Shown: positions 383 to 13,500 of the stretch, one piece after another
How positions within the stretch are numbered: position 1 is the stretch's first letter
Layout of the letters: each line of letters begins with the position of its first letter
DNA from: Flavobacteriaceae bacterium
Lineage (GTDB): Bacteria; Bacteroidota; Bacteroidia; Flavobacteriales; Flavobacteriaceae
DNA: 64,000 nucleotides
NCBI GenBank assembly: GCA_013043685.1
Contig: JABDNT010000028.1
Span: 47,897 to 111,896, forward strand
Direction: 5' to 3'
Translations under genes and position numbers: made by a program
Notes under the pieces: generated by a model
What the model was told of the DNA's origin: nothing
Databases searched by the model: none
The model's input: the letters and a program-made list of their open reading frames with translations, nothing else

Positions 383-1876
383 TTAATGCCAATCCGGCAT
401 AAAAGCATCCTCATGTATAAGCGTTCTTGTACTCGAAGTTTCAATTTCAAGGGTGTAAACATCCTTTCGTGATATTCCATCATTCGAGGTGTTTGTATAC
501 ATAACAAAAGCTTCGTTCGGTGAGAATATCGGATCCAGATCGTTAGTACCGTTAGGTTTGTTATCTGAGATGTCCGTAGTGGTCATCGCGTCCGTATCAT
601 AAATAAACAACCTGGAATCCAGTCTTCTGTAACTCGCATCCTCAAATCCGGAAACATCGTAGGAATATAATATTCTTTGGTTATCCACTGAAATATCCAG
701 ACCACCTACTGCTCCATCCACATTCTCAAGGATGGTGCCGGTTTCGTTACCAGCGAAGGTTATTGTGTAAATCCTCACATCGTAACCATCCAGGTTATTG
801 GTCTTTAAAACGATCATATCACTATTATCGCTTACGGCAACTTCGGAGATCAACGATCCATCCGGGGTTTGATATACCTCGCCTATACCACCACCATTGA
901 ATTGAATACGATATAATTTATCCAATCGCGGGAAATATATATTTACAAAATCATCCGGCCAGTCAAAATTAATTTCATCCAAATTGAAACCATTGGGCTT
1001 AATAGTGCTCGTCACTTTTTGTTTGCCGGTACCGTCCCTGTTCATGATAAATATATCGGCATTGGCACCATCCGATTGGAGATAGGCAATTTTATTTACA
1101 GAGATATTACGCCTTGGCCGGTAACTATTCACTTCGGAAGATGTTAGCTGAAACTCATTGCCTTCATCATCGGAGGAGAATATCACATTATTTCCATTCA
1201 TATTTCTTACGAACAATATTCTGTTATCTACCGGCGGATCCATCACTTCGAAGCTACTTACTTCACTGATCACTGGATCGTTTATATTATCCGTCGCAGT
1301 GACCTGCCAGAAGTATTCGGTACCCAGTGTAAGTTCAGAATAGGTAAGAGTAGTATCGGCAAGTTCTTCGAAGAGTAAAACCTCATTGGTTTCTACATTG
1401 GTAAGTTCCAAAGTATACTCAATTGGGTCTCCTTCGGGATCTGTAGAATTCCAGCTGAAGATGGCTTCGATTCCTTCAATTACTTCATTGTCCTCCGGAG
1501 TTAAGAGCTCGGGTGTGGTAGGAGGCCTGTTATTAAAGGTTGAAACTTCCAGTTCGAACACAACATTCGATGACACATTTCCATTGATAGTAACCGGAGC
1601 GAAATCGGCTAAATATCCATCTTTCTTCGCTTCCACCGAATAATCCCCTACCTCGATATTTTCTATGGTGAAATTTCCCGATTCCGAGGTAAAAACTGTA
1701 CTTGACACCGGATTCGTTGAAATACGCACATTCTCAAGTGGCTCGTTGGTCCCTGCGGCTACAACTTTACCATTTAGCGTTCCAAATTCATTTTCACCAA
1801 TTTTGTCTTCATTACAAGAAAACAAAAGCAGAAATGTAGTTGTGATTAATGCTATATATTTAAAACTGCCTTTCAT
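383..1876 (-). CDS. Curli-locus lipoprotein: carboxypeptidase-regulatory-like domain + FN3/Ig-like domain + TolB-like beta-propeller
   Basis: Lipobox LLLFSC; GxVxxxxTxxPLxxVxIS...GxFxIxxIxxGxYxVxAxKxGY; RPPTTPELLTPEDN...FSW...DPEGDPIEYTLEL; propeller-like repeats (ADIFIMNRDGTGKQKVTS). Paralog at 7524..9017. Confidence 0.75.
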   Translation of the reverse strand: MKGSFKYIALITTTFLLLFSCNEDKIGENEFGTLNGKVVAAGTNEPLENVRISTNPVSSTVFTSESGNFTIENIEVGDYSVEAKKDGYLADFAPVTINGNVSSNVVFELEVSTFNNRPPTTPELLTPEDNEVIEGIEAIFSWNSTDPEGDPIEYTLELTNVETNEVLLFEELADTTLTYSELTLGTEYFWQVTATDNINDPVISEVSSFEVMDPPVDNRILFVRNMNGNNVIFSSDDEGNEFQLTSSEVNSYRPRRNISVNKIAYLQSDGANADIFIMNRDGTGKQKVTSTIKPNGFNLDEINFDWPDDFVNIYFPRLDKLYRIQFNGGGIGEVYQTPDGSLISEVAVSDNSDMIVLKTNNLDGYDVRIYTITFAGNETGTILENVDGAVGGLDISVDNQRILYSYDVSGFEDASYRRLDSRLFIYDTDAMTTTDISDNKPNGTNDLDPIFSPNEAFVMYTNTSNDGISRKDVYTLEIETSSTRTLIHEDAFMPDWH

Positions 1877-1886
1877 AATTTTCCGC

Positions 1887-3296
1887 TTATCGGTTAGTCT
1901 TTAATTTTGATTTTTTAGAGCCGAAATGATAATTGATCCCGGCAGAGAAAGTAAAGAAGTAATCGTCTCTTCTTCCATTTATTTCATTATCTATCTTATC
2001 TGAAAAGGTCGCGTTCCAGTCTCCTTTTGCTATAAAGGAAACCCGGTCTGATGCCTGATATTCCAATCCAGCCCCCATTTTCAGAAAAAAGAATGCATCC
2101 AATCGCTGCAAATAAAGTTCGGGCGAATCGTCTACGAACAGTAAAACACCAGGCCCCGCATAGATAAATGGCGCGAGCTTATCATTTGGCAGAATATTGT
2201 ATTCTACTGTGGCCGCCTCAGATATCCACCAATGACGCGTATCTCCTGTGGAATTCAACCTGAAAAAATTCGTTGTTAGCCCGAGGCTCAAACTATGGAT
2301 GAATCGATATTTATATCCCAATTCCATATTATAGTCCAGAATTCCCGTATTGAAATCACCATCAACGTAAGCCAGTCCGAAGGACGCATGAGCTGAATGT
2401 CGATAATCGTGTTTCTGGAATTCTCGTTCATAAAGGTCGGTATTGGCCTCAAGTTCTTTTTCCAGAAGGTATTGGTCTACAACTTCCTTATCTTTTTCAG
2501 GGCCATCCAGTGTGGTCCATAACTGATCTTTAATCCCTTCGTAGATCAGCACTTCTACAGCTTTCTCAATGGCTTCCTGTACGGCTAGTTGTGTGGGTTC
2601 ATTCTTTGTGAATCCCGTTTCAGCTTCCAATAATCGTTGGAAATTAACGTATCTGAATATCCCCACGTCTACTGCCTGAGATAGTATGGTCTTGGAGACG
2701 TTTACTGTTTTCAGTATTTCACCGGTTGATGTTGAAACTGCCCGCAGGTAAATTGTTATCCTGTCCTGTCGGTACTGAGAAGAACCTCCTACACCAAAAT
2801 ATCTCGCCCCAACTCCACCTGTAAGGATATTGGTGTCGTAAGAGACAATTCCACCTTCCAGCAGTATGCCAGCAAATAGCAGCGGACTTAGACGCTGATT
2901 TCTCTGGTCGTCGTTCCTTAAATATTCCTGACGGGTAGTACGAATGATATTCCTTTCGTTCAGGAGATTCGCAAAGTTCTCTCGTTCAATCGGTGTAAAC
3001 CATTTGGAATCTTCAAGAGCCTTGATTAGGATGGTCGTCGCTCCCTGGGTTACGGCCGTACTAAAAGTACTTCCGGTTTCAATGTTTTTATATTGTCCGG
3101 TCTGATCTTTGAAATTATAAACACCAACAACTATGGGCTTGTCTGGCAAGGGCAATTTCAACAATTTCTCCGTCTGTTCCGTGTTCTCTCCTATTCTGGC
3201 TTCCTGGTTACCGATGGGCTGATTGAAGTACGCCCCGCAACCTGAGAATAAAATTAAGAATAGTACTAGACTTATTTTACCTATGATCTGTTTCAT
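1887..3296 (-). CDS. csgG: Curli secretion channel CsgG with additional C-terminal predicted beta-barrel domain
   Basis: Lipobox FSGC; VGVYNFKDQTGQYK, FSTAVTQGATTILIKALEDSKWFTPIER, NLLNERNIIR, GGVGARYFG, STGEILKTVNVSKTILS, FQRLLEAETGFTKNEP are CsgG motifs; C-terminal extension with alternating beta-strands ending GINYHFG. Confidence 0.93.
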   Translation of the reverse strand: MKQIIGKISLVLFLILFSGCGAYFNQPIGNQEARIGENTEQTEKLLKLPLPDKPIVVGVYNFKDQTGQYKNIETGSTFSTAVTQGATTILIKALEDSKWFTPIERENFANLLNERNIIRTTRQEYLRNDDQRNQRLSPLLFAGILLEGGIVSYDTNILTGGVGARYFGVGGSSQYRQDRITIYLRAVSTSTGEILKTVNVSKTILSQAVDVGIFRYVNFQRLLEAETGFTKNEPTQLAVQEAIEKAVEVLIYEGIKDQLWTTLDGPEKDKEVVDQYLLEKELEANTDLYEREFQKHDYRHSAHASFGLAYVDGDFNTGILDYNMELGYKYRFIHSLSLGLTTNFFRLNSTGDTRHWWISEAATVEYNILPNDKLAPFIYAGPGVLLFVDDSPELYLQRLDAFFFLKMGAGLEYQASDRVSFIAKGDWNATFSDKIDNEINGRRDDYFFTFSAGINYHFGSKKSKLKTNR

Positions 3297-3299
3297 ATA

Positions 3300-3674
3300 T
3301 TATCCGTTTGGAACTATAATCTGTGTTTGTTCACCCGTGGTGATATCGAGTATATTAATTACGAGTCCTTGTGTCGATTCAAAAACTTCGTATTCAAGAT
3401 TTCCATTTCGGGAAGTTCCAAGAGGAGGGGTTTGTCCGCCAAATTGGTCGTTAAACTGATTATTCAAAAGGTTATCAAATCCCGCTAGATTATCGAAGGC
3501 CTCAATTCCCAGGTCGTTTTCGCTAAAAGGATTCTGAGCGTTCGCAGAATTCAGCAACCAGGTATAATTGAACGGGTCTCCACCAAAGGCAGGATTTTTT
3601 GCTCTATAGGTAAGCTGTTGCGCAAACCCATACGTACCTAAAGAAAGAAACAGAATTAAGATAATTTGTCTCAT
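3300..3674 (-). CDS. csgF: Curli assembly protein CsgF
   Basis: LTYRAKNPAFGGDPFNYTWLLNSANAQNPF matches the CsgF N-terminal signature; C-term LVINILDITTGEQTQIIVPNG. Confidence 0.93.
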   Translation of the reverse strand: MRQIILILFLSLGTYGFAQQLTYRAKNPAFGGDPFNYTWLLNSANAQNPFSENDLGIEAFDNLAGFDNLLNNQFNDQFGGQTPPLGTSRNGNLEYEVFESTQGLVINILDITTGEQTQIIVPNG

Positions 3675-3680
3675 AAGTTA

Positions 3681-4457
3681 TTATTTATATTGTTTTACGA
3701 TGTTTTTTTGCTTTTTAAGGTCTTCAAAATACGCCATAGTTCTTCGGACGGCAAGATCTGCCATTCCGCGGATAAAGTCGTTCTGAGGCCGTACAATAAA
3801 TTCCATTATCATTTCTTCGCCAATCAATACTTCGATCTTAGTGTTATTTGCTATTGCCAGTTCTTCTTTTATGGTCACAATTTTAGGACCATTCACCGAA
3901 TAGTACATATATCCCGAATAAAACTGTGTATAAAAATCGCGGCCAGGTTTTGTCTTGGTATCTTCCAGGACAATACCTCTTAATTCCACGCCGTCGCTCA
4001 TGGCGAACTCTGTTCGTACATCTGTATTTTCCTTTGGCTTCAATACAATTTTCTTGTCTTTTGAATCGTCATTAAGGACAACTCGATCCTTCCCTAATAG
4101 TTTTTCTTCAAAATCGTATACTAGTAATAAGATTATAACTTTCGTCTTGTCGTCCACATTTACAGTGGTGATAGACAATTTCTTTTTTTCGCCTGGCTGC
4201 AACACAAACCGACCTTCCTGATCATTTTTTGAAAGATTACCACCAGGATCTGTTTTAATTACGGAAAGCACGTATCTCAGGCTCTGATTGATCTGGGTTT
4301 TGTTATACGCAGTTCCTGCCACTTCTATAAATTCCGAATTGCGATTCATTTCAATCTCAGCCGCAACTTGTGTATTGTATATCTGAGCAATACCCATGTT
4401 AGATAGCGAGATTAAAAAAAACAGCATACCTAAAGATATGTGTGTTTTTTTGAACAT
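3681..4457 (-). CDS. csgE: CsgE-family curli adaptor with N-terminal CsgH/CsgC-like domain
   Basis: C-terminal half GIVLEDTKTKPGRDFYTQFYSGYM...IVTIKEEL...IEVLIGEEMIMEFIVRPQNDF is CsgE-like; N-terminal half has SLRYVLSVIKT...NDQEGRFVLQPGEKKKLS. Confidence 0.85.
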   Translation of the reverse strand: MFKKTHISLGMLFFLISLSNMGIAQIYNTQVAAEIEMNRNSEFIEVAGTAYNKTQINQSLRYVLSVIKTDPGGNLSKNDQEGRFVLQPGEKKKLSITTVNVDDKTKVIILLLVYDFEEKLLGKDRVVLNDDSKDKKIVLKPKENTDVRTEFAMSDGVELRGIVLEDTKTKPGRDFYTQFYSGYMYYSVNGPKIVTIKEELAIANNTKIEVLIGEEMIMEFIVRPQNDFIRGMADLAVRRTMAYFEDLKKQKNIVKQYK

Positions 4458-4459
4458 TA

Positions 4460-4990
4460 TTATTGTCGTTTGACGTTTCTTACTATGACCGTTTGATTAT
4501 TACCACGCATGTTTACTTTTATGCGGTCTGATAATGAATTATTACCTAAAAAAAGCAATCGCTGGTTCGATCCACTCTGTATGATTTGCCCATTATGGAA
4601 CAACTTTAAATCAGATCCTATATCATAAAATACATTATTATTTCCACGCTGAAGTATAAATTCATCTACAATTACTGATTCCAAACTCACATAAGCTTCA
4701 TTATTGTTCCCTTGCTGAAATGCAGATACATTACTTCTTGCCGACCTTATTTCTGAAGTGAACTGGTTATTATTACCTACCTGTCGAATAAATATTTCGT
4801 TTGAAACGGAGTTTGCGGAAGGAGTATTATTTCGTAAGAATTGAGAAGTATAGAGAGCTAGCTGATCGGCACTGCCACCCGCTAACGCCCGGGGAGTAAT
4901 CTCCACATTTTTATAAGTTTGACCCACTGCGAAGCCTACAGAAGATAAGGCAATAAGCGCAATAAGGTATATGCGATTACTTAATTTCAT
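4460..4990 (-). CDS. csgB: CsgB-like minor curlin / nucleator
   Basis: Signal peptide; Q-x-G-N-N-N repeats (IRQVGNNNQF, FQQGNNNEAY, LQRGNNNVFY, IQSGSNQRLL) and basic C-terminus MRGNNQTVIVRNVKRQ, position between csgA and csgE. Confidence 0.78.
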   Translation of the reverse strand: MKLSNRIYLIALIALSSVGFAVGQTYKNVEITPRALAGGSADQLALYTSQFLRNNTPSANSVSNEIFIRQVGNNNQFTSEIRSARSNVSAFQQGNNNEAYVSLESVIVDEFILQRGNNNVFYDIGSDLKLFHNGQIIQSGSNQRLLFLGNNSLSDRIKVNMRGNNQTVIVRNVKRQ

Positions 4991-5080
4991 TTCAATTATT
5001 AGTTAGGTTTTTGCTGCTACCACTGAAGGTAACAATTTTGAAATTCTTTTATCTATTTAATCCTTTTTATTTTATAAAGA

Positions 5081-5117
5081 GTGTATAAGAGAGATCGAAT
5101 TGACCTCCCTTATACAC
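5081..5117 (-). promoter_or_regulatory. Intercistronic RNA hairpin between csgA-like and csgB-like genes
   Basis: GTGTATAAGAGAG (5081-5093) / CTCCCTTATACAC (5105-5117), 13-bp stem with one G-U wobble on the sense (minus) transcript. Confidence 0.65.
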
Positions 5118-5127
5118 TGAGAAATTC

Positions 5128-5994
5128 TTAGAACCCTCCTCCGCCATTGTGCTGATTCACAACAGATGAGTTTCCGGCTCCTAATTGAGTAACTGTACTC
5201 ATATGTCCAAGACCATGCTGATGCGTGTAACTAAAGTTGTACAATCCAACTTGTAGTACATCAGAGTCATTGATGACACCATATTGCTCAGTCCAGCTTC
5301 CATTCCCAAGTCCTACTTGAAGAAGATCGGAATCGTTTCTAATTCCATGCTGATCTGTTGCAGCCCAGTTACCTACACCAAATTGAAGTGTAGTATTCGT
5401 ATTTCTTCGTCCCAGCTGATGAGCACCTGCAAGGTTACCAATACCTACCTGAAGGGCATACGTATCATTTCTTCTACCTTCCTGTAGCGTCCCTGATAAG
5501 TTTAATGCTCCTAACTGGATAGCGTCTGCATCGTTACGACGGCCAACTTGCGTAATCGCGGCACCGTTAAGTATACCTCTCTGATACACATTCGCATCGT
5601 TGCGACGGCCACGCTGATCTACATCAGCATAGTTAAGTATACCTGCCTGGTCAACTCTGGACACATTACGGCGTCCACGTTGGTCAACTTCAGAATAGTT
5701 TAATACACCTATTTGGGTAGTCACAGACTTGTTTCTGCGTCCTCTCTGGTCTACATTAGAATTGTTTCCAGCTCCAAGTTGAGCAACATAAGAATCGTTA
5801 AGGATTCCTAATTGGTCTACTTCAGATTCGTTGGCAAGTCCAATTTGATTCACATCAGAATCATTGAATAAACCTGTTTGGTCTACGTCAGAGGAATTTA
5901 AAATACCTATCTGAACTACGTCACTGTCGTTAAATTGAGCGAACCCAACTGTTGCTACTAAAAGTGCTACTGCACATAAAATTACTTTTTTCAT
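5128..5994 (-). CDS. csgA: CsgA-like major curlin, ~24 x 11-aa repeats, with RR-ladder repeats
   Basis: Signal peptide then N-x-S-x-V-x-Q-x-G-x-x repeats; six GRRN turns in alternate repeats. Confidence 0.87.
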   Translation of the reverse strand: MKKVILCAVALLVATVGFAQFNDSDVVQIGILNSSDVDQTGLFNDSDVNQIGLANESEVDQLGILNDSYVAQLGAGNNSNVDQRGRRNKSVTTQIGVLNYSEVDQRGRRNVSRVDQAGILNYADVDQRGRRNDANVYQRGILNGAAITQVGRRNDADAIQLGALNLSGTLQEGRRNDTYALQVGIGNLAGAHQLGRRNTNTTLQFGVGNWAATDQHGIRNDSDLLQVGLGNGSWTEQYGVINDSDVLQVGLYNFSYTHQHGLGHMSTVTQLGAGNSSVVNQHNGGGGF

Positions 5995-6015
5995 AATTCC
6001 AGGTTTTTACACTTA

Positions 6016-6870
6016 TTATAGGTTATGTTGATTTACTACAGAAGAGTTTCCTGCTCCTAGCTGAGTTACTGTACTCATGTGTCCAAGTCCGTGCTGATGC
6101 GTGTAGCTGGAGTTGAAGAACCCAACTTGTAGTACATCAGAGTCGTTGATAATACCATACTGCTCTGTCCAGCTTCCGTTTCCAACTCCAATTTGAAGAA
6201 GGTCAGAATCATTGGCCAAACCATGCTGATCTGTAACACTCCAGTTACCTAAACCAAACTGAAGCGTGGTATTTGTGTTAAATGCTCCTAATTGGTGAGT
6301 ACCTGCAAGGTTTCCAACACCTACCTGAAGGGCATACGTATCATTCGCCAATCCTTCCTGGAAAGTCGCGGACAAATTGAATGCACCTAATTGGATAGCA
6401 TCCGCATCATTGATTATACCTACTTGATTAATCAGAGCACCGTTAAACAATCCTCGTTGGTATACATTAGCATCGTTACCTAATATATACTGATTAACAT
6501 CAGAATAGTTAGCTATTCCAACCTGGTCAACTCTGGCGTTGTTAAGAACGCCCCATTGGTCAACTTCAGAATAGTTTAACGCTCCGATTTGCGTAGTTAC
6601 CGACTTGTTAGCAAATCCAACCTGTAAGTTATCGGATGTATTCGCAATTCCTAATTGAGCAACATAAGAATCATTTATGATTCCAATTTGATCAACTTCA
6701 GAGTCATTCGCTAATCCGATCTGATTTACATCAGAATCATTTGCCAAACCTGTTTGGTCTACATCAGATGAGTTCAGAATACCTATCTGAACAACATCAC
6801 TGTCATTAAATTGGGCGAACCCAACCGTTGCAAATAAAAGTGCTACTGCACATAAAACTACTTTTTTCAT
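6016..6870 (-). CDS. csgA: CsgA-like major curlin, ~24 x 11-aa repeats
   Basis: Signal peptide MKKVVLCAVALLFATVGFAQ then NDSDVxQxGxx repeats; tandem paralog of 5128..5994. Confidence 0.87.
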   Translation of the reverse strand: MKKVVLCAVALLFATVGFAQFNDSDVVQIGILNSSDVDQTGLANDSDVNQIGLANDSEVDQIGIINDSYVAQLGIANTSDNLQVGFANKSVTTQIGALNYSEVDQWGVLNNARVDQVGIANYSDVNQYILGNDANVYQRGLFNGALINQVGIINDADAIQLGAFNLSATFQEGLANDTYALQVGVGNLAGTHQLGAFNTNTTLQFGLGNWSVTDQHGLANDSDLLQIGVGNGSWTEQYGIINDSDVLQVGFFNSSYTHQHGLGHMSTVTQLGAGNSSVVNQHNL

Positions 6871-7523: not shown

Positions 7524-9017
7524 CTATTCCCAGTCAGGCATAAAGGCGTCCTCATGACGGAGAGTTCTGGAACTCGAGGTTCCAATCTCCAGGGTAAATA
7601 TGTCATTACGGGATATCCCGTCATTCGAGGTATTTGTAAACATCACGAACGCTTCGTTTCGCGAGAATATAGGTTCCAGATCATTGGTTCCGTTTGGTCT
7701 GTTATCGGATATGTCGGTAGTGGTCAATTCAACCCTATCGTAAATAAACATTCGTGAATCTAACCTTCGGTAGCTTGCATCCTCAAATCCGGATATATCA
7801 TAAGAATATAAAATCTTCTGATTATCCACTGAAATATCCAGACCACCCACTGCTCCGTTCACATTCTCAAGGATGGTACCGGTTTCATTACCAGCGAAGG
7901 TAATCGTGTATATCCTAACATCATACCCGTCTAAATTATTGGTCTTTAAAACGATGAGATCACTATTGTTACTTATGGCGACCTCAGAGATCAATGATCC
8001 GTCCGGTGTTTGATATACTTCTGCTAAACCTCCGCCATTGAATTGAATGCGGTATAATTTATCCATTCGAGGAAAATATATATTGATAAAATCATCCGGC
8101 CATTCGAAATTGATTTCGTTCAAATTGAAACCATTAGGCTTAACAGTGCTTGTCACTTTTCGCTTCTCGGTTCCATCCCGGTTCATGAGAAATATATCTG
8201 CATTGGCACCATCCGACTGCAGATAGGCAATTTTATTTACTGATAGATTTCTTCTGGGTCGATAGCTATTCACTTCAGAAGAAGTAAGCTGAAACTCGAC
8301 TCCATCATCATCGGCCGAGAATATCACGTTATTACCATTGATCTTTCTAACAAACAGTATTCTGTTATCAATCGGAGGAGGCATTACCTCAAAGGCACTT
8401 GCCTCACTCACCACCGGATCGTTAATATTATCGGTCGCGGTTACATGCCATACGTATTCAGTACCTAGTGTAAGCTCAGAATAGGTAAGCGTGGTATCGG
8501 CTAGCTCCTCAAATAGGAGTACCTCATTGGTATCAATATTAGTAAGTTCTAAGGTATACTCAATAGGATCTTCTTCCGGATCTGTAGATTCCCAGCTAAA
8601 GATGGCTTCGACCCCCTGAATCATCTCGTTATCTTCTGGGGTTAACAGCACAGGTGTTGTTGGAGGCCTGTTGTTAAAGGTTGAAACTTCCAGTTCAAAC
8701 ACAACATTTGAAGTAAGGTTTCCATTAATGGTGGCCGGTGCAAAATCCGTTAAGAAACCATCTTTCTTTGCTTCCACCGCATACTCCCCTACCAGGATAC
8801 TTTCGATCAAGAAATTTCCCGAGCTGTCTGTAAAAACTGTACTGGAAACAGGGTTAGTCGATATTCTGGTATTAGGTAGTGGTTCATTCGATCCCGCTGC
8901 GACAACTTTCCCTTTCAATGCTCCAAATTCATCTTCACCTATTTTATCTTCATTACAGGAAAATACAAAAAGGAAGGCCGTTACAATAAGGGCTATATAT
9001 TTAAATGTACGTTTCAT
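7524..9017 (-). CDS. Curli-locus lipoprotein (paralog of 383..1876)
   Basis: Same 497 aa length and architecture, lipobox FLFVFSC; highly similar throughout. Confidence 0.75.
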   Translation of the reverse strand: MKRTFKYIALIVTAFLFVFSCNEDKIGEDEFGALKGKVVAAGSNEPLPNTRISTNPVSSTVFTDSSGNFLIESILVGEYAVEAKKDGFLTDFAPATINGNLTSNVVFELEVSTFNNRPPTTPVLLTPEDNEMIQGVEAIFSWESTDPEEDPIEYTLELTNIDTNEVLLFEELADTTLTYSELTLGTEYVWHVTATDNINDPVVSEASAFEVMPPPIDNRILFVRKINGNNVIFSADDDGVEFQLTSSEVNSYRPRRNLSVNKIAYLQSDGANADIFLMNRDGTEKRKVTSTVKPNGFNLNEINFEWPDDFINIYFPRMDKLYRIQFNGGGLAEVYQTPDGSLISEVAISNNSDLIVLKTNNLDGYDVRIYTITFAGNETGTILENVNGAVGGLDISVDNQKILYSYDISGFEDASYRRLDSRMFIYDRVELTTTDISDNRPNGTNDLEPIFSRNEAFVMFTNTSNDGISRNDIFTLEIGTSSSRTLRHEDAFMPDWE

Positions 9018-9028
9018 GATTTCAATTA

Positions 9029-10435
9029 TTAATTTAGATTATCATCCTTCTTGCGTGAACCGAAATGATAATTGATTCCTGCTCCAAATGTGAAGAAGTA
9101 ATCATCACGTCGGCCTCGTATCTCATTGTCGATCTTGTCTGTGAATGTAGGGTTCCAATCTCCTTTCAGTACAAAGGAGACCTTATCCGAAACTATGTAT
9201 TCAAGTCCGGCTCCGAACTTCAGTGTGAGGAATGTATCTCCGCGCTGCAGATACTTTTTCGGTGAATTATCCGCAAAGAGCATAAATCCACCGCCAGCAT
9301 AGGCAAATGGCGTTAAGCGATCATGCGGCAATACCGTATATTCTGCGAATAGCGTTTCATCAATCCACCAGTGATTGGTCTCGCTAGTTGAATTCAACCT
9401 GAAGAATTGAGAAGTAATCCCAATATTAAAGCGATCAATAATCTTGAACTTATATGTAAGCTCAAAGTTATAATCAAGGATTCCGGAGGTGTAATCACTG
9501 TCCACATAGGCGAGTCCGGCTGAAACATTTATCGTATGTCGATAATCATTCTCAAGAAACTTCCTTTCGTATAGAGAGGTATTCGATTCCAGTTCCATCT
9601 CCTCGGTGTATTGGGCTATCAGGGCAGTATCTGCTTCCGGTCCATCAACGGTTTTCCACAACTGATCCTTTATCCCTTCTAAGATAAGCAGTTGGACCGC
9701 TTTTTCTATAGCTTCCTGAACTGCTAATTGGGTGGGTTCGTTCTTGGTGAACCCGGTTTCAGCCTCCAGTAATCTCTGGAATTTTACATACCTGAATATA
9801 CCAACATCCACTGCTTGAGAAAGTATGGTTTTGGATACATTTACTGTTTTCAGGATTTCACCGGTTGATGTGGACACGGCACGCAGGTAAATTGTGATAC
9901 GGTCCTGGCGGTACTGTGATGATCCGCCGGCTCCAAAATACCGTGCTCCTACCCCACCGGTTAGAATGTTAGTATCGTACGATATGATACCTCCTTCCAG
10001 TAATATTCCGGCAAAAAGTAACGGACTTAACTTCTGATTTCGTTCATCGTCCGATTTCAAATACTCCTGTCGGGTAGTCCGAATGATATTACGTTCATTT
10101 AGCAGATTCCCGAAGTTTTCACGTTCGATGGGAGTAAACCATTTGGAATCTTCAAGAGCCTTGATCAAGATAGTGGTGGCTCCTTGAGTGACGGCAGTAC
10201 TAAAAGTACTTCCGGTTTCTATATTCTTATATTGTCCCGTCTGATCCTTGAAATTATAAACACCTACTACAATAGGTTTTTCCGGTGCGGGTAGTTCAAT
10301 TAGCTTTTCAGTTTGGCTTGTTGTTTCTGCGATCCTTGCATCTTCATTAATGATAGGTTGGTTAAAATATGCACCACAACCGCTTAGAACCACAAACCAA
10401 GTTAGAATTCCTAATTTGGTTAACAGTGGTCTCAT
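9029..10435 (-). CDS. csgG: CsgG with C-terminal beta-barrel extension (second copy); start chosen at MRPLLTK
   Basis: Same CsgG motifs as 1887..3296; lipobox LSGC; C-term FTFGAGINYHFGSRKK. Confidence 0.93.
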   Translation of the reverse strand: MRPLLTKLGILTWFVVLSGCGAYFNQPIINEDARIAETTSQTEKLIELPAPEKPIVVGVYNFKDQTGQYKNIETGSTFSTAVTQGATTILIKALEDSKWFTPIERENFGNLLNERNIIRTTRQEYLKSDDERNQKLSPLLFAGILLEGGIISYDTNILTGGVGARYFGAGGSSQYRQDRITIYLRAVSTSTGEILKTVNVSKTILSQAVDVGIFRYVKFQRLLEAETGFTKNEPTQLAVQEAIEKAVQLLILEGIKDQLWKTVDGPEADTALIAQYTEEMELESNTSLYERKFLENDYRHTINVSAGLAYVDSDYTSGILDYNFELTYKFKIIDRFNIGITSQFFRLNSTSETNHWWIDETLFAEYTVLPHDRLTPFAYAGGGFMLFADNSPKKYLQRGDTFLTLKFGAGLEYIVSDKVSFVLKGDWNPTFTDKIDNEIRGRRDDYFFTFGAGINYHFGSRKKDDNLN

Positions 10436-10439
10436 AGTA

Positions 10440-10814
10440 TTATCCATTTGGAATGATTATTTGCGTATATTCTCCAGTGGTAATATCCAGTATGTTTATT
10501 ACCAGGCCTTGGGTAGATTCGTAAACTTCATATTCGAGATTACCATTTCGGGAAGTACCTATTTCGGGTGTTTGTGTACCGAATTGGTTAGTAAATTGAT
10601 TTCCGAACGTATTATCGAAGTTTGCAAAATCTCCAAATTGTTCCACATCGAATTGATCTTCAGAGAACGGATTCTGCGCGTTGGCAGAATTCAACATCCA
10701 TGTATAATTGAAGGGATCACCTCCGAACGCGGGATTCTTTGGAGTATACGTAAGTTGTTGGGCAAATCCAGACGAACAAATACTAAAAATCAGTATTATT
10801 ATCAATTGTTTCAT
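10440..10814 (-). CDS. csgF: CsgF (second copy)
   Basis: LTYTPKNPAFGGDPFNYTWMLNSANAQNPF. Confidence 0.93.
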   Translation of the reverse strand: MKQLIIILIFSICSSGFAQQLTYTPKNPAFGGDPFNYTWMLNSANAQNPFSEDQFDVEQFGDFANFDNTFGNQFTNQFGTQTPEIGTSRNGNLEYEVYESTQGLVINILDITTGEYTQIIIPNG

Positions 10815-10820
10815 AACGCC

Positions 10821-11603
10821 CTATTTATAGAATTTAATTAATCCTTTATCGTTCTTAAGTCTTTCGAAATACGCTATCGTTCGCTTGATAGCTTCGTAAG
10901 ACATAGCTTTCATATAGTCATTCTTGGGTTGAACAAAAAATGCCATTATCAAGTCGTCACCAATGTAAAGTTCTATCCTGGTATTGTTTCCGATAGTCAG
11001 TTCTTCATTGATGCTAACTATTTTGGGTCCGTTGATGTTATTAGCCATATAGGCGGAGTAATACATACTGTAGAAATCGCGACCGGGTTTAGTTTTCGTA
11101 TCTTCCAATACGATCCCCCGAAGTTCAACACCGTCGCTCATAGCAAATCGTTCTAAAACGTCATTAGCTTCATCGAGTGGTACTACTTCGCTCTTAACTT
11201 CCGAATCATCGTTGAGAACAATTCTATCCTTCCCCAATAGGTTTTCATCCAAATCGTAAACAAGTAATAATAGAATTGTACGCGTTGTATCTTTCGCGTT
11301 TAAGGTAGTTTTTGCAAGCTCTCGTTTTTCGCCTGGGCTCAAAACAAAACGCCCGTTCTGATCATTCTTTACCCTGTTCAACGTTTCAGGGTCTTTTGAA
11401 ATTACAGACATTACATAGCGCAAACTGTGATTAATTTCTGTTTTGTTATAAGCGAATCCGGTTACTGAAATAAACTCAGTATTTTCTTCCAAAAAAATCT
11501 CCGCAGCAACACGTGTATTATGTATCTGTGCTGTGATTGATCCGGACATCAGGACCATGACCCAAAGAGCCAGTTTTAATATGGACAGATTTCTAATCAT
11601 CAC
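10821..11603 (-). CDS. csgE: CsgE with CsgH-like N-terminal domain (second copy)
   Basis: GIVLEDTKTKPGRDFYSMYYSAYM...IVSINEELTIGNNTRIELYIGDDLIMAFFVQPKNDY; N-terminal SLRYVMSVISKDPETLNRVKNDQNGRFVLSPGEKREL. Confidence 0.85.
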   Translation of the reverse strand: MMIRNLSILKLALWVMVLMSGSITAQIHNTRVAAEIFLEENTEFISVTGFAYNKTEINHSLRYVMSVISKDPETLNRVKNDQNGRFVLSPGEKRELAKTTLNAKDTTRTILLLLVYDLDENLLGKDRIVLNDDSEVKSEVVPLDEANDVLERFAMSDGVELRGIVLEDTKTKPGRDFYSMYYSAYMANNINGPKIVSINEELTIGNNTRIELYIGDDLIMAFFVQPKNDYMKAMSYEAIKRTIAYFERLKNDKGLIKFYK

Positions 11604-12127
11604 CTGCGATTTATATTTCTAATAATCACAGTTTGATTATTACCCCGCATGGAAACCCTAATCCGCTCGGAAAGCGAATTAGTACCTAAATAAAGCAGTC
11701 GTTGGTTATTTCCCTGCTGGTATATCTGACCCTTATGGTACAATGTCCAATTCCTTCCAATGTCATAGAAAACATTGTTATTGCCACGTTGTATAATCTG
11801 TTCTTCGATATTAATGGCACTTCTGTTCAAATATGCATCATTGTGATTACCCATTTGAAACAGTAAAATATCTGACGCGGCACTCCGAACATTTGAGGTA
11901 AAATTATTATTAAATCCTATCTGCCTTATGTGTACATCCCTGGAAGTACGTCTTTGAGGTGTTGTATTGTTCCGAAGTAATTCGGTGGTCATAAGATTTA
12001 ATGGATTGGTCTCACCAATTAAAATTGTTCGCGGCCTGATCTCGATATTTTTATAGGTCTGAGCAAAAGCGCCGAAGACCGGTAATAAGACAAGTAGCAA
12101 AATCCATATGTGTAATTGAATTTTCAT
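11600..12127 (-). CDS. csgB: CsgB-like minor curlin (second copy)
   Basis: IRQIGFNNNF, FQMGNHNDAY, IQRGNNNVFY, YQQGNNQRLL, basic C-term MRGNNQTVIIRNINRR. Confidence 0.78.
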   Translation of the reverse strand: MKIQLHIWILLLVLLPVFGAFAQTYKNIEIRPRTILIGETNPLNLMTTELLRNNTTPQRRTSRDVHIRQIGFNNNFTSNVRSAASDILLFQMGNHNDAYLNRSAINIEEQIIQRGNNNVFYDIGRNWTLYHKGQIYQQGNNQRLLYLGTNSLSERIRVSMRGNNQTVIIRNINRR

Positions 12128-12212
12128 TTCTACTTAATTTGGTTAATAAACCTTGCTCACTCTACCAAAGGGATTTTTAACTGTCTAATGAACAAGGCGT
12201 TCAAAAGGTCAA

Positions 12213-12285
12213 AAAGTAGTGCATAAGCGGATCAAAAGAGAACCCTTATACACTACTTTCCGGCATCACAGTTCTATCTGTGATG
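12213..12285 (-). promoter_or_regulatory. Two consecutive intercistronic hairpins between csgA-like and csgB-like genes
   Basis: AAAGTAGTGCATAAG (12213-12227)/CTTATACACTACTTT (12245-12259), and CATCACAG-TTCTAT-CTGTGATG (12264-12285). Confidence 0.65.
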
Positions 12286-12306
12286 AATTACAGAATGACG
12301 TTAGAC

Positions 12307-13044
12307 CTAGAATCCGCCTCCACCCATATCATATTGAGTAACTACGGAAGTGTTTCCAGCTCCAAGTTGTACAACGTTGCTCATGTGACCCAAACCTTCT
12401 TGATGCACATAGCTAAAGTTGTATAATCCAACTTGTAATACATCAGAGTCATTAATAACTCCAAACTGTTCGGTCCATTGGGCGTTGCCCCAACCTATTT
12501 GCCATACGTCAGAATCGTTCGCAAATCCCAATTGGCCTACGAAGCCTAAGTTATAGTGTCCTAATTGAATTGAAGTAGAAGTATTTATCATACCACCTTG
12601 TACTACCATTACACCATTATCTCCACCTAACTGAAGTGCATAGGAGTCGTTGGCAATTCCTCCTTGAAGAATAAGTGCTCCGTTATCATATCCTAATTGT
12701 ACAACATCGGAATCATTAAACCATCCAACTTGTCCAACTGCGGCTGCGTTAGTAACACCTAATTGGAAAACGAAAGAATCATTTAGCCATCCCATTTGAA
12801 GAACATCGGCTTCGTTGCCTCCACCAATTTGAACAACTAATGATTTATTATCAATTCCCATTTGATCTACCTCAGAATCGTTTAGAATTCCTAATTGGAA
12901 AACGTCTGAGTCATTAATCCAACCTATCTGATTTACATCAGAAGCGTTTAATATACCCACTTGGAGTACATCACTGTCATTAAATTGGGCGAACCCAATC
13001 GTTGCTAACATAAGTGCAAATGCACATAAAACTAACTTTTTCAT
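12307..13044 (-). CDS. csgA: CsgA-like major curlin, ~20 x 11-aa repeats; start chosen at MKKLVLCAF
   Basis: Signal peptide then FNDSDVLQVGILNASDVNQIGWINDSDVFQLG... repeats, C-term GGGGF. Confidence 0.87.
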   Translation of the reverse strand: MKKLVLCAFALMLATIGFAQFNDSDVLQVGILNASDVNQIGWINDSDVFQLGILNDSEVDQMGIDNKSLVVQIGGGNEADVLQMGWLNDSFVFQLGVTNAAAVGQVGWFNDSDVVQLGYDNGALILQGGIANDSYALQLGGDNGVMVVQGGMINTSTSIQLGHYNLGFVGQLGFANDSDVWQIGWGNAQWTEQFGVINDSDVLQVGLYNFSYVHQEGLGHMSNVVQLGAGNTSVVTQYDMGGGGF

Positions 13045-13500
13045 AATGTGAATATTTAGAGGTTCTGACACGCTTAACGCATATCGATTAAAGTCATTTC
13101 AAATACGTCATCCGGACGTATGTTCCATGTTAAATAAGTGAAGAATCATTTTCAACAGTAAAGCAGGCGTTAGCACTCTGCTATTGAAATCCAAATTAAG
13201 TTTTCAGCTTAGAAATGTACGAGACACTAACTCATTTAACCTGGATGTTCATATTGAATCGATAATAGTAAAGGAGGAGTGAAGTTCTATTACCAAATTT
13301 TACCTTAAAGTAAGTCACATTTTATTAAAAAGCAATAAGCGTATACACGTATTTTCTTACAAATGAAGGGTTTAACCTACAGATTCGCTAACTATCATAG
13401 TAACTGATAGTTGCGAATATTTCCTGTGATTACAGATCGATTTTATCTTTTTATTCTAAAAAATAAACGTGATTTAAACGGCATTATTGAATAATATTAA
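13045..13500 (-). promoter_or_regulatory. Long promoter/leader region of right curli operon
   Basis: ~450 bp non-coding; contains ATACGTC-N5-GACGTAT and GTATACACGTAT motifs shared with the left operon. Confidence 0.55.

Follow-up and report, generated by a model that had tools for sequence, protein, structure and literature searches.

A predicted one-sided arginine ladder on the turns of a Flavobacteriaceae curlin and its absence from the tandem paralog

Curli, the biofilm amyloids, are commonly regarded as sticky fibres of a generic kind, with surface residues of little import. The locus described here, located in a window of 64,000 nucleotides from a Flavobacteriaceae bacterium (GenBank assembly GCA_013043685.1, contig JABDNT010000028.1, positions 47,897 to 111,896; all coordinates below count from the first letter of this window), raises the question why one of two tandemly encoded curlins carries arginine pairs at strictly alternate turns, whereas its neighbour has small or hydrophobic residues at the same sites.

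The csg operons and the arginine pairs of CsgA1

The window contains two complete csg operons in tandem (383-6870 and 7524-13071, minus strand), each with its own csgG, csgE, csgF, csgB and lipoprotein gene. The gene order is A2-A1-csgB-csgE-csgF-csgG-lipoprotein in operon 1 and A3-csgB-csgE-csgF-csgG-lipoprotein in operon 2. The following genes are discussed:

383..1876, minus strand: acidic lipoprotein at the operon end, net charge about -54
1887..3296, minus strand: secretion pore CsgG (PF03783, E=2.1e-67)
3300..3674, minus strand: CsgF (PF10614, E=1.7e-21)
3681..4457, minus strand: CsgE (PF10627, E=3.1e-9), whose N-terminal domain resembles CsgH (E=1.9e-7 with the NCBIfam model, below its cut-off)
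4460..4990, minus strand: minor curlin of operon 1, basic (pI 9.8) and CsgB-like according to its position and its NNN/QxG motifs
5128..5994, minus strand: CsgA1, the ladder-bearing curlin, 288 aa, a 20-aa signal peptide followed by 24 contiguous 11-aa units
5935..5994, minus strand: signal peptide of CsgA1, MKKVILCAVALLVATVGFAQ, with cleavage after AQ predicted from the sequence
6016..6870, minus strand: CsgA2, the tandem paralog of CsgA1 (81% identity), 284 aa with 24 units, ladder lost
12307..13071, minus strand: CsgA3, a ladder-free curlin of 20 units encoded in operon 2, with an MKK start at 13044

A two-operon layout likewise occurs in Aureitalea sp. L0-47 (L035) and in G314 (L079), where csgE was found in just one of the two operons. 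The operon-1 CsgE comprises 258 aa and, with its additional N-terminal domain, might be a chaperone-adaptor fusion; the second copy (10821-11603) is of similar length. The C-terminal part of the 469-aa CsgG (370-445) weakly matches the T9SS protein PorG (E=2.5e-5), outside the region covered by the E. coli CsgG model. Both operon-end lipoproteins (the second at 7524-9017, net about -45) contain CarboxypepD_reg and are propeller-like, and nearly every related csg operon that was examined ends with such an acidic lipoprotein gene. A Pfam search with the CsgB-like protein gave no hit, and Rfam gave no match in the first 16 kb of the window.

CsgA1 is a curlin by repeat, operon and predicted-fold tests. 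It matches PF07012 (E=2.3e-25, 88.6 bits at a cut-off of 20.7) with 24 units of the type N-x5-Q-x-G-x-x, and it is encoded together with csgE, csgF and csgG. It is not the enterobacterial equivalog, scoring 85.1 bits against the E. coli-type CsgA model NF007470, which has a cut-off of 160. The family is known and the surface variant appears to be new; the open-access literature searched did not yield a curlin described as having such an Arg ladder, which is weak evidence of absence.

The initial annotation had reported GRR after units 6, 8, 10, 12, 14 and 16 and GIR after unit 18 of CsgA1, which proved exact on re-reading; the span given for the ladder, 5338-5739, runs precisely from R219 to R86:

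5734..5739, minus strand: RR of turn 6/7 (R86 R87)
5668..5673, minus strand: RR of turn 8/9 (R108 R109)
5602..5607, minus strand: RR of turn 10/11 (R130 R131)
5536..5541, minus strand: RR of turn 12/13 (R152 R153)
5470..5475, minus strand: RR of turn 14/15 (R174 R175)
5404..5409, minus strand: RR of turn 16/17 (R196 R197)
5338..5340, minus strand: R of GIR, turn 18/19 (R219)

At units 6, 8 and 10 the motif is extended to RGRR, so that 16 of the 18 Arg residues of the mature protein fall into one set of turns. All six RR pairs share phase 21 mod 22, an arrangement reached by none of 20,000 residue shuffles, and a stricter shuffle, in which whole turns were exchanged among the 23 junctions, gave p = 0.005 (two-sided). 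Hence, it is confirmed that the Arg periodicity exceeds chance, and the comparative evidence presented below is stronger than these shuffle statistics.

Predicted fold and geometry of the charged edge

The structure of mature CsgA1 was modelled with AF2 from an alignment of the mature chain with register-matched rows, because full-length gapped orthologs resulted in a pLDDT of only 71 and a weak fold match. The model has a mean pLDDT of 94.6 and contains 24 strands of nine residues each, seven in the last, at an exact spacing of 11 residues. Solved homologs are the CsgA of Pontibacter korlensis (8c50, E=3.8e-62) and of E. coli (8enq/8enr, E=1.4e-7); in a Foldseek comparison the model matched 8c50 with a probability of 1.00 and 8enq with a TM of 0.74 on the target. 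AF2 and Foldseek thus predict a beta-solenoid with two strands per rung. In this architecture turn positions 10-11 and the equivalent second arc are located at the surface (PMC10192328). As two strands, i.e. 22 residues, make up one rung, the Arg pairs of alternate turns are predicted to stack on one edge of the solenoid. The one-sided Arg column that was to be looked for in an AlphaFold model is therefore supported by the predicted strands and fold matches, and the opposite outcome, RR pairs on alternating faces, does not agree with the 22-residue rung geometry. The solvent exposure of the Arg residues and the Arg-Asp salt-bridge distances are inferred.

How far such an edge would continue along the fibre depends on the number of strands, since subunits with an even number are argued to stack head-to-tail by translation, whereas a 2_1 screw is required when the number is odd (PMC10192328). 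CsgA1 and CsgA2 have 24 units each and CsgA3 has 20, so that a continuous one-edge stripe is predicted for this species. Most ladder orthologs have 23 units; by the published rule, the charged edge is predicted to alternate subunit by subunit in them.

The description of this edge as a cationic stripe holds locally. Within the monomer the stripe is predicted to lie on one edge, but it covers rungs 3-9, i.e. 7 of the 12 rungs, with five lacking Arg, and the protein as a whole is net negative (about -8). Moreover, Asp columns flank the ladder; together with the negative net charge they restrict the term to the ladder itself.

The closest structural relative, P. korlensis CsgA R15.5 (8c50; PMC10192328), shares the solenoid with the same centrosymmetric N-x5-Q-x-G-x-x units and also bears an ordered array of surface charges. 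However, its array is acidic and lies on a strand face, whereas that of CsgA1 is basic and lies on one turn edge, and it has 31 strands, an odd number with 2_1 screw, compared to 24. E. coli CsgA (8enq/8enr) belongs to the same fold family and uses the same secretion genes csgE/F/G, but has five non-centrosymmetric repeats, and an Arg-pair ladder is absent from its published description.

Conservation among relatives and probable loss in CsgA2

In twelve ladder orthologs, compared at the five C-terminal ladder turns, Lys or Arg occupies 108 of the 120 ladder-turn positions, whereas the opposite edge has them at 15 of 120. The ladders of L010/L044 and of the Aureitalea sp. L0-47 protein contain Lys in place of Arg. 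The organism's own genus and three further genera of the family (g1, g99, g111, g122) encode ladder curlins; shorter GRR ladders, seen in L096-L098 (from another family of the order) and in L102-L104 (genus g148), may be either homologous or convergent. The periodicity expected of the orthologs is thus kept by most of them, but the sidedness is not absolute: the ladder switches edge in L041, and both edges are charged in L010/L044 and L053. The switch, in which the Lys/Arg ladder of L041:9998-10828 (L041/L009) changes edge after unit 9, would fit a single 11-aa unit having been lost or gained. One-sided charge was found in 21 of 27 surveyed loci, which were picked by similarity to CsgA1 and are in many cases related, so that these are not independent events.

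Other arrangements of charge exist as well. A 536-aa curlin of 47 units (L054:679-2289) has 22 Arg, all on one turn edge (K/R 22:0), and mostly Ser/Thr/Gly/Asp on the opposite one. Two curlins of L084 (8095-9756 and 9979-11169) carry K/R on one turn edge (12:0 and 10:0) and D/E mostly on the other (4:16 and 2:10), and judged from their sequences each would give a fibre with a bipolar pair of edges. Acidic one-edge ladders are present in L011, L055, L056 and L065.

The tandem paralog offers the most direct comparison. At the ladder positions CsgA2 reads GFA, GVL, ILG, GII, GLA, GAF and GLA, as quoted initially, and the two proteins differ at 14/14 ladder sites, 15/33 other turn sites, 12/72 face sites and 6/120 core sites; ladder sites differ significantly more often than other turn sites (Fisher p = 2.5e-4). 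The net charge of the ladder segment is +5 in CsgA1 versus -10 in CsgA2. Different codons are used at 81 of the 210 identical residues, hence the duplication is not recent. In a tree of the core columns, from which turn residues were left out, CsgA1 and CsgA2 are paired (support 0.86) within the ladder clade, the deeper nodes being weakly supported. This position argues that CsgA2 lost an inherited ladder; a gain of RR in CsgA1 is rejected on the same tree. The economical reading of the sequences is that CsgA2 may have swapped the ladder for small or hydrophobic residues while keeping the fold.

Could the ladder simply be the by-product of an expanding 22-aa module in which RR was present by accident, in turns that tolerate anything? 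The turns are indeed the most variable part of the fold, as the 15/33 non-ladder turn sites that differ between CsgA1 and CsgA2 illustrate, and positions 10-11 are known to be poorly conserved (PMC10192328). Nevertheless, the six RR pairs are encoded by CGC AGA, CGC CGT, CGT CGC, CGT CGT, AGA AGA and CGA AGA, and units of the same parity share just 53% DNA identity. The ladder therefore does not consist of fresh copies of a single module, and a recent module duplication is ruled out as its origin. Furthermore, the exchange of K for R and the retention of 90% K/R at ladder turns across genera, while the opposite turns drift, leave this explanation largely refuted and very improbable.

Four complete or near-complete genomes (G006, G108, G120, G131) have a single csg operon (one csgG) and a single detected CsgA, which bears the ladder. 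A second curlin is therefore not a required partner, and the partner curlin, one of the ligands originally proposed, is ruled out as an obligatory target.

Possible functions of the ladder and their meaning

The ladder is probably a real functional surface. Our tentatively preferred explanation, held with a little less than even confidence, is that its edge serves as an electrostatic docking stripe, to which polyanions or anionic fibres would bind. CsgA1 would be secreted as the major curlin, fold into a 12-rung beta-solenoid and polymerise into curli. Along rungs 3-9, one set of turns is predicted to display Arg pairs stacked at roughly the rung spacing (about 4.8 Å); an Asp column runs beside them on the next strand, and the turns of the other edge are neutral. 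With this edge the fibre may attach to polyanions of periodic structure in the biofilm or on a surface, the first candidate being acidic polysaccharide, followed by eDNA or LPS, or it may attach to anionic fibres. After duplication of the operon-1 curlin, the CsgA2 copy would have dropped the stripe, and the cell would thus encode charged-edge and neutral-edge subunits, possibly mixed in one fibre. We favour this docking function because of the geometry, the conservation of charge with K-for-R exchange, the turn-confined loss in CsgA2 and the carriage of the ladder by sole CsgA proteins. A comparable case are the heparin-binding Abeta40 3Q fibrils, in which in-register basic residues recur every 4.7 Å in a stripe proposed to bind polyanions, and the sulfates of heparin, about 5 Å apart, mirror this amyloid repeat (PMC5548265). 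However, Abeta is not a curlin, and its stripe is only a minor heparin site, the fibril corners being the major one (PMC5548265). The negative net charge of CsgA1 and the existence of three relatives with charge on both edges also speak against docking, and simple electrostatics would be weakened at seawater ionic strength if the habitat is marine, as its relatives suggest.

Another point against docking is that Asp follows the ladder turns at 48/60 sites compared to 4/60 on the opposite strand (twelve ladder orthologs), so that some of the positive charge may be taken up within the protein itself. The same asymmetry favours the main rival, gatekeeping, in which the Arg ladder would pair either with Asp residues of CsgA1 itself or with the chaperone CsgE/CsgH and slow or time nucleation, so that the long CsgA1 subunit stays soluble until it is secreted, while CsgA2 would nucleate faster. 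Gatekeeping by R/K-D pairs was demonstrated experimentally in Citrobacter CsgA (PMC9900396), CsgC and CsgH work by charge (PMC4838910), and the operon-1 CsgE bears a CsgH-like domain. As in CsgA1, the gatekeepers R62 and K107 of Citrobacter youngae CsgA are conserved basic residues working with Asp, but they are two isolated residues acting on nucleation instead of a stacked ladder (PMC9900396). A few scattered residues leave the stacking at every second turn and the RR pairs at the apex unexplained. Moreover, CsgA2 and other ladder-free relatives have the Asp column as well, and salt weakened the effect in the Citrobacter study (PMC9900396), which would count against gatekeeping in a marine habitat. 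Gatekeeping appears possible, yet on the doubtful side.

The ladder could also act between fibres, docking on acidic strand faces or the acidic N-terminal third of neighbouring CsgA1 fibres, or on CsgA2/CsgA3 fibres, so that curli would be bundled into sheets without divalent cations. CsgA1 is bipolar along its axis, with a net charge of -10 in units 1-5 and +5 in units 6-19, CsgA2 and CsgA3 are strongly acidic (net about -23), the relative L084 combines a K/R edge with an opposite edge of mostly D/E, and acid grids were proposed to drive sheet formation of the P. korlensis curlin (PMC10192328). However, given the ladder in relatives with a single detected CsgA, partnering with CsgA2 or CsgA3 is not its original role, although CsgA1 may still bundle with itself. 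Overall, we regard bundling as unlikely.

The conserved charge class of a ladder on one edge, lost entirely in a co-encoded duplicate whose core is intact, suggests that the turns are the site of functional diversification in curlins. It is conceivable, though speculative and rather unlikely to hold in general, that each solenoid turn edge evolves as a one-dimensional binding surface with an Arg/Lys, Asp/Glu or hydrophobic ladder, and that duplicates swap the edge and keep the core. If such an edge code were true, one cell could build co-assembling fibres with different edge chemistries. CsgA1 and CsgA2 represent a natural matched pair for testing what curli surfaces bind, and CsgA1 may serve as a starting point for designing curli materials whose edge is programmed.
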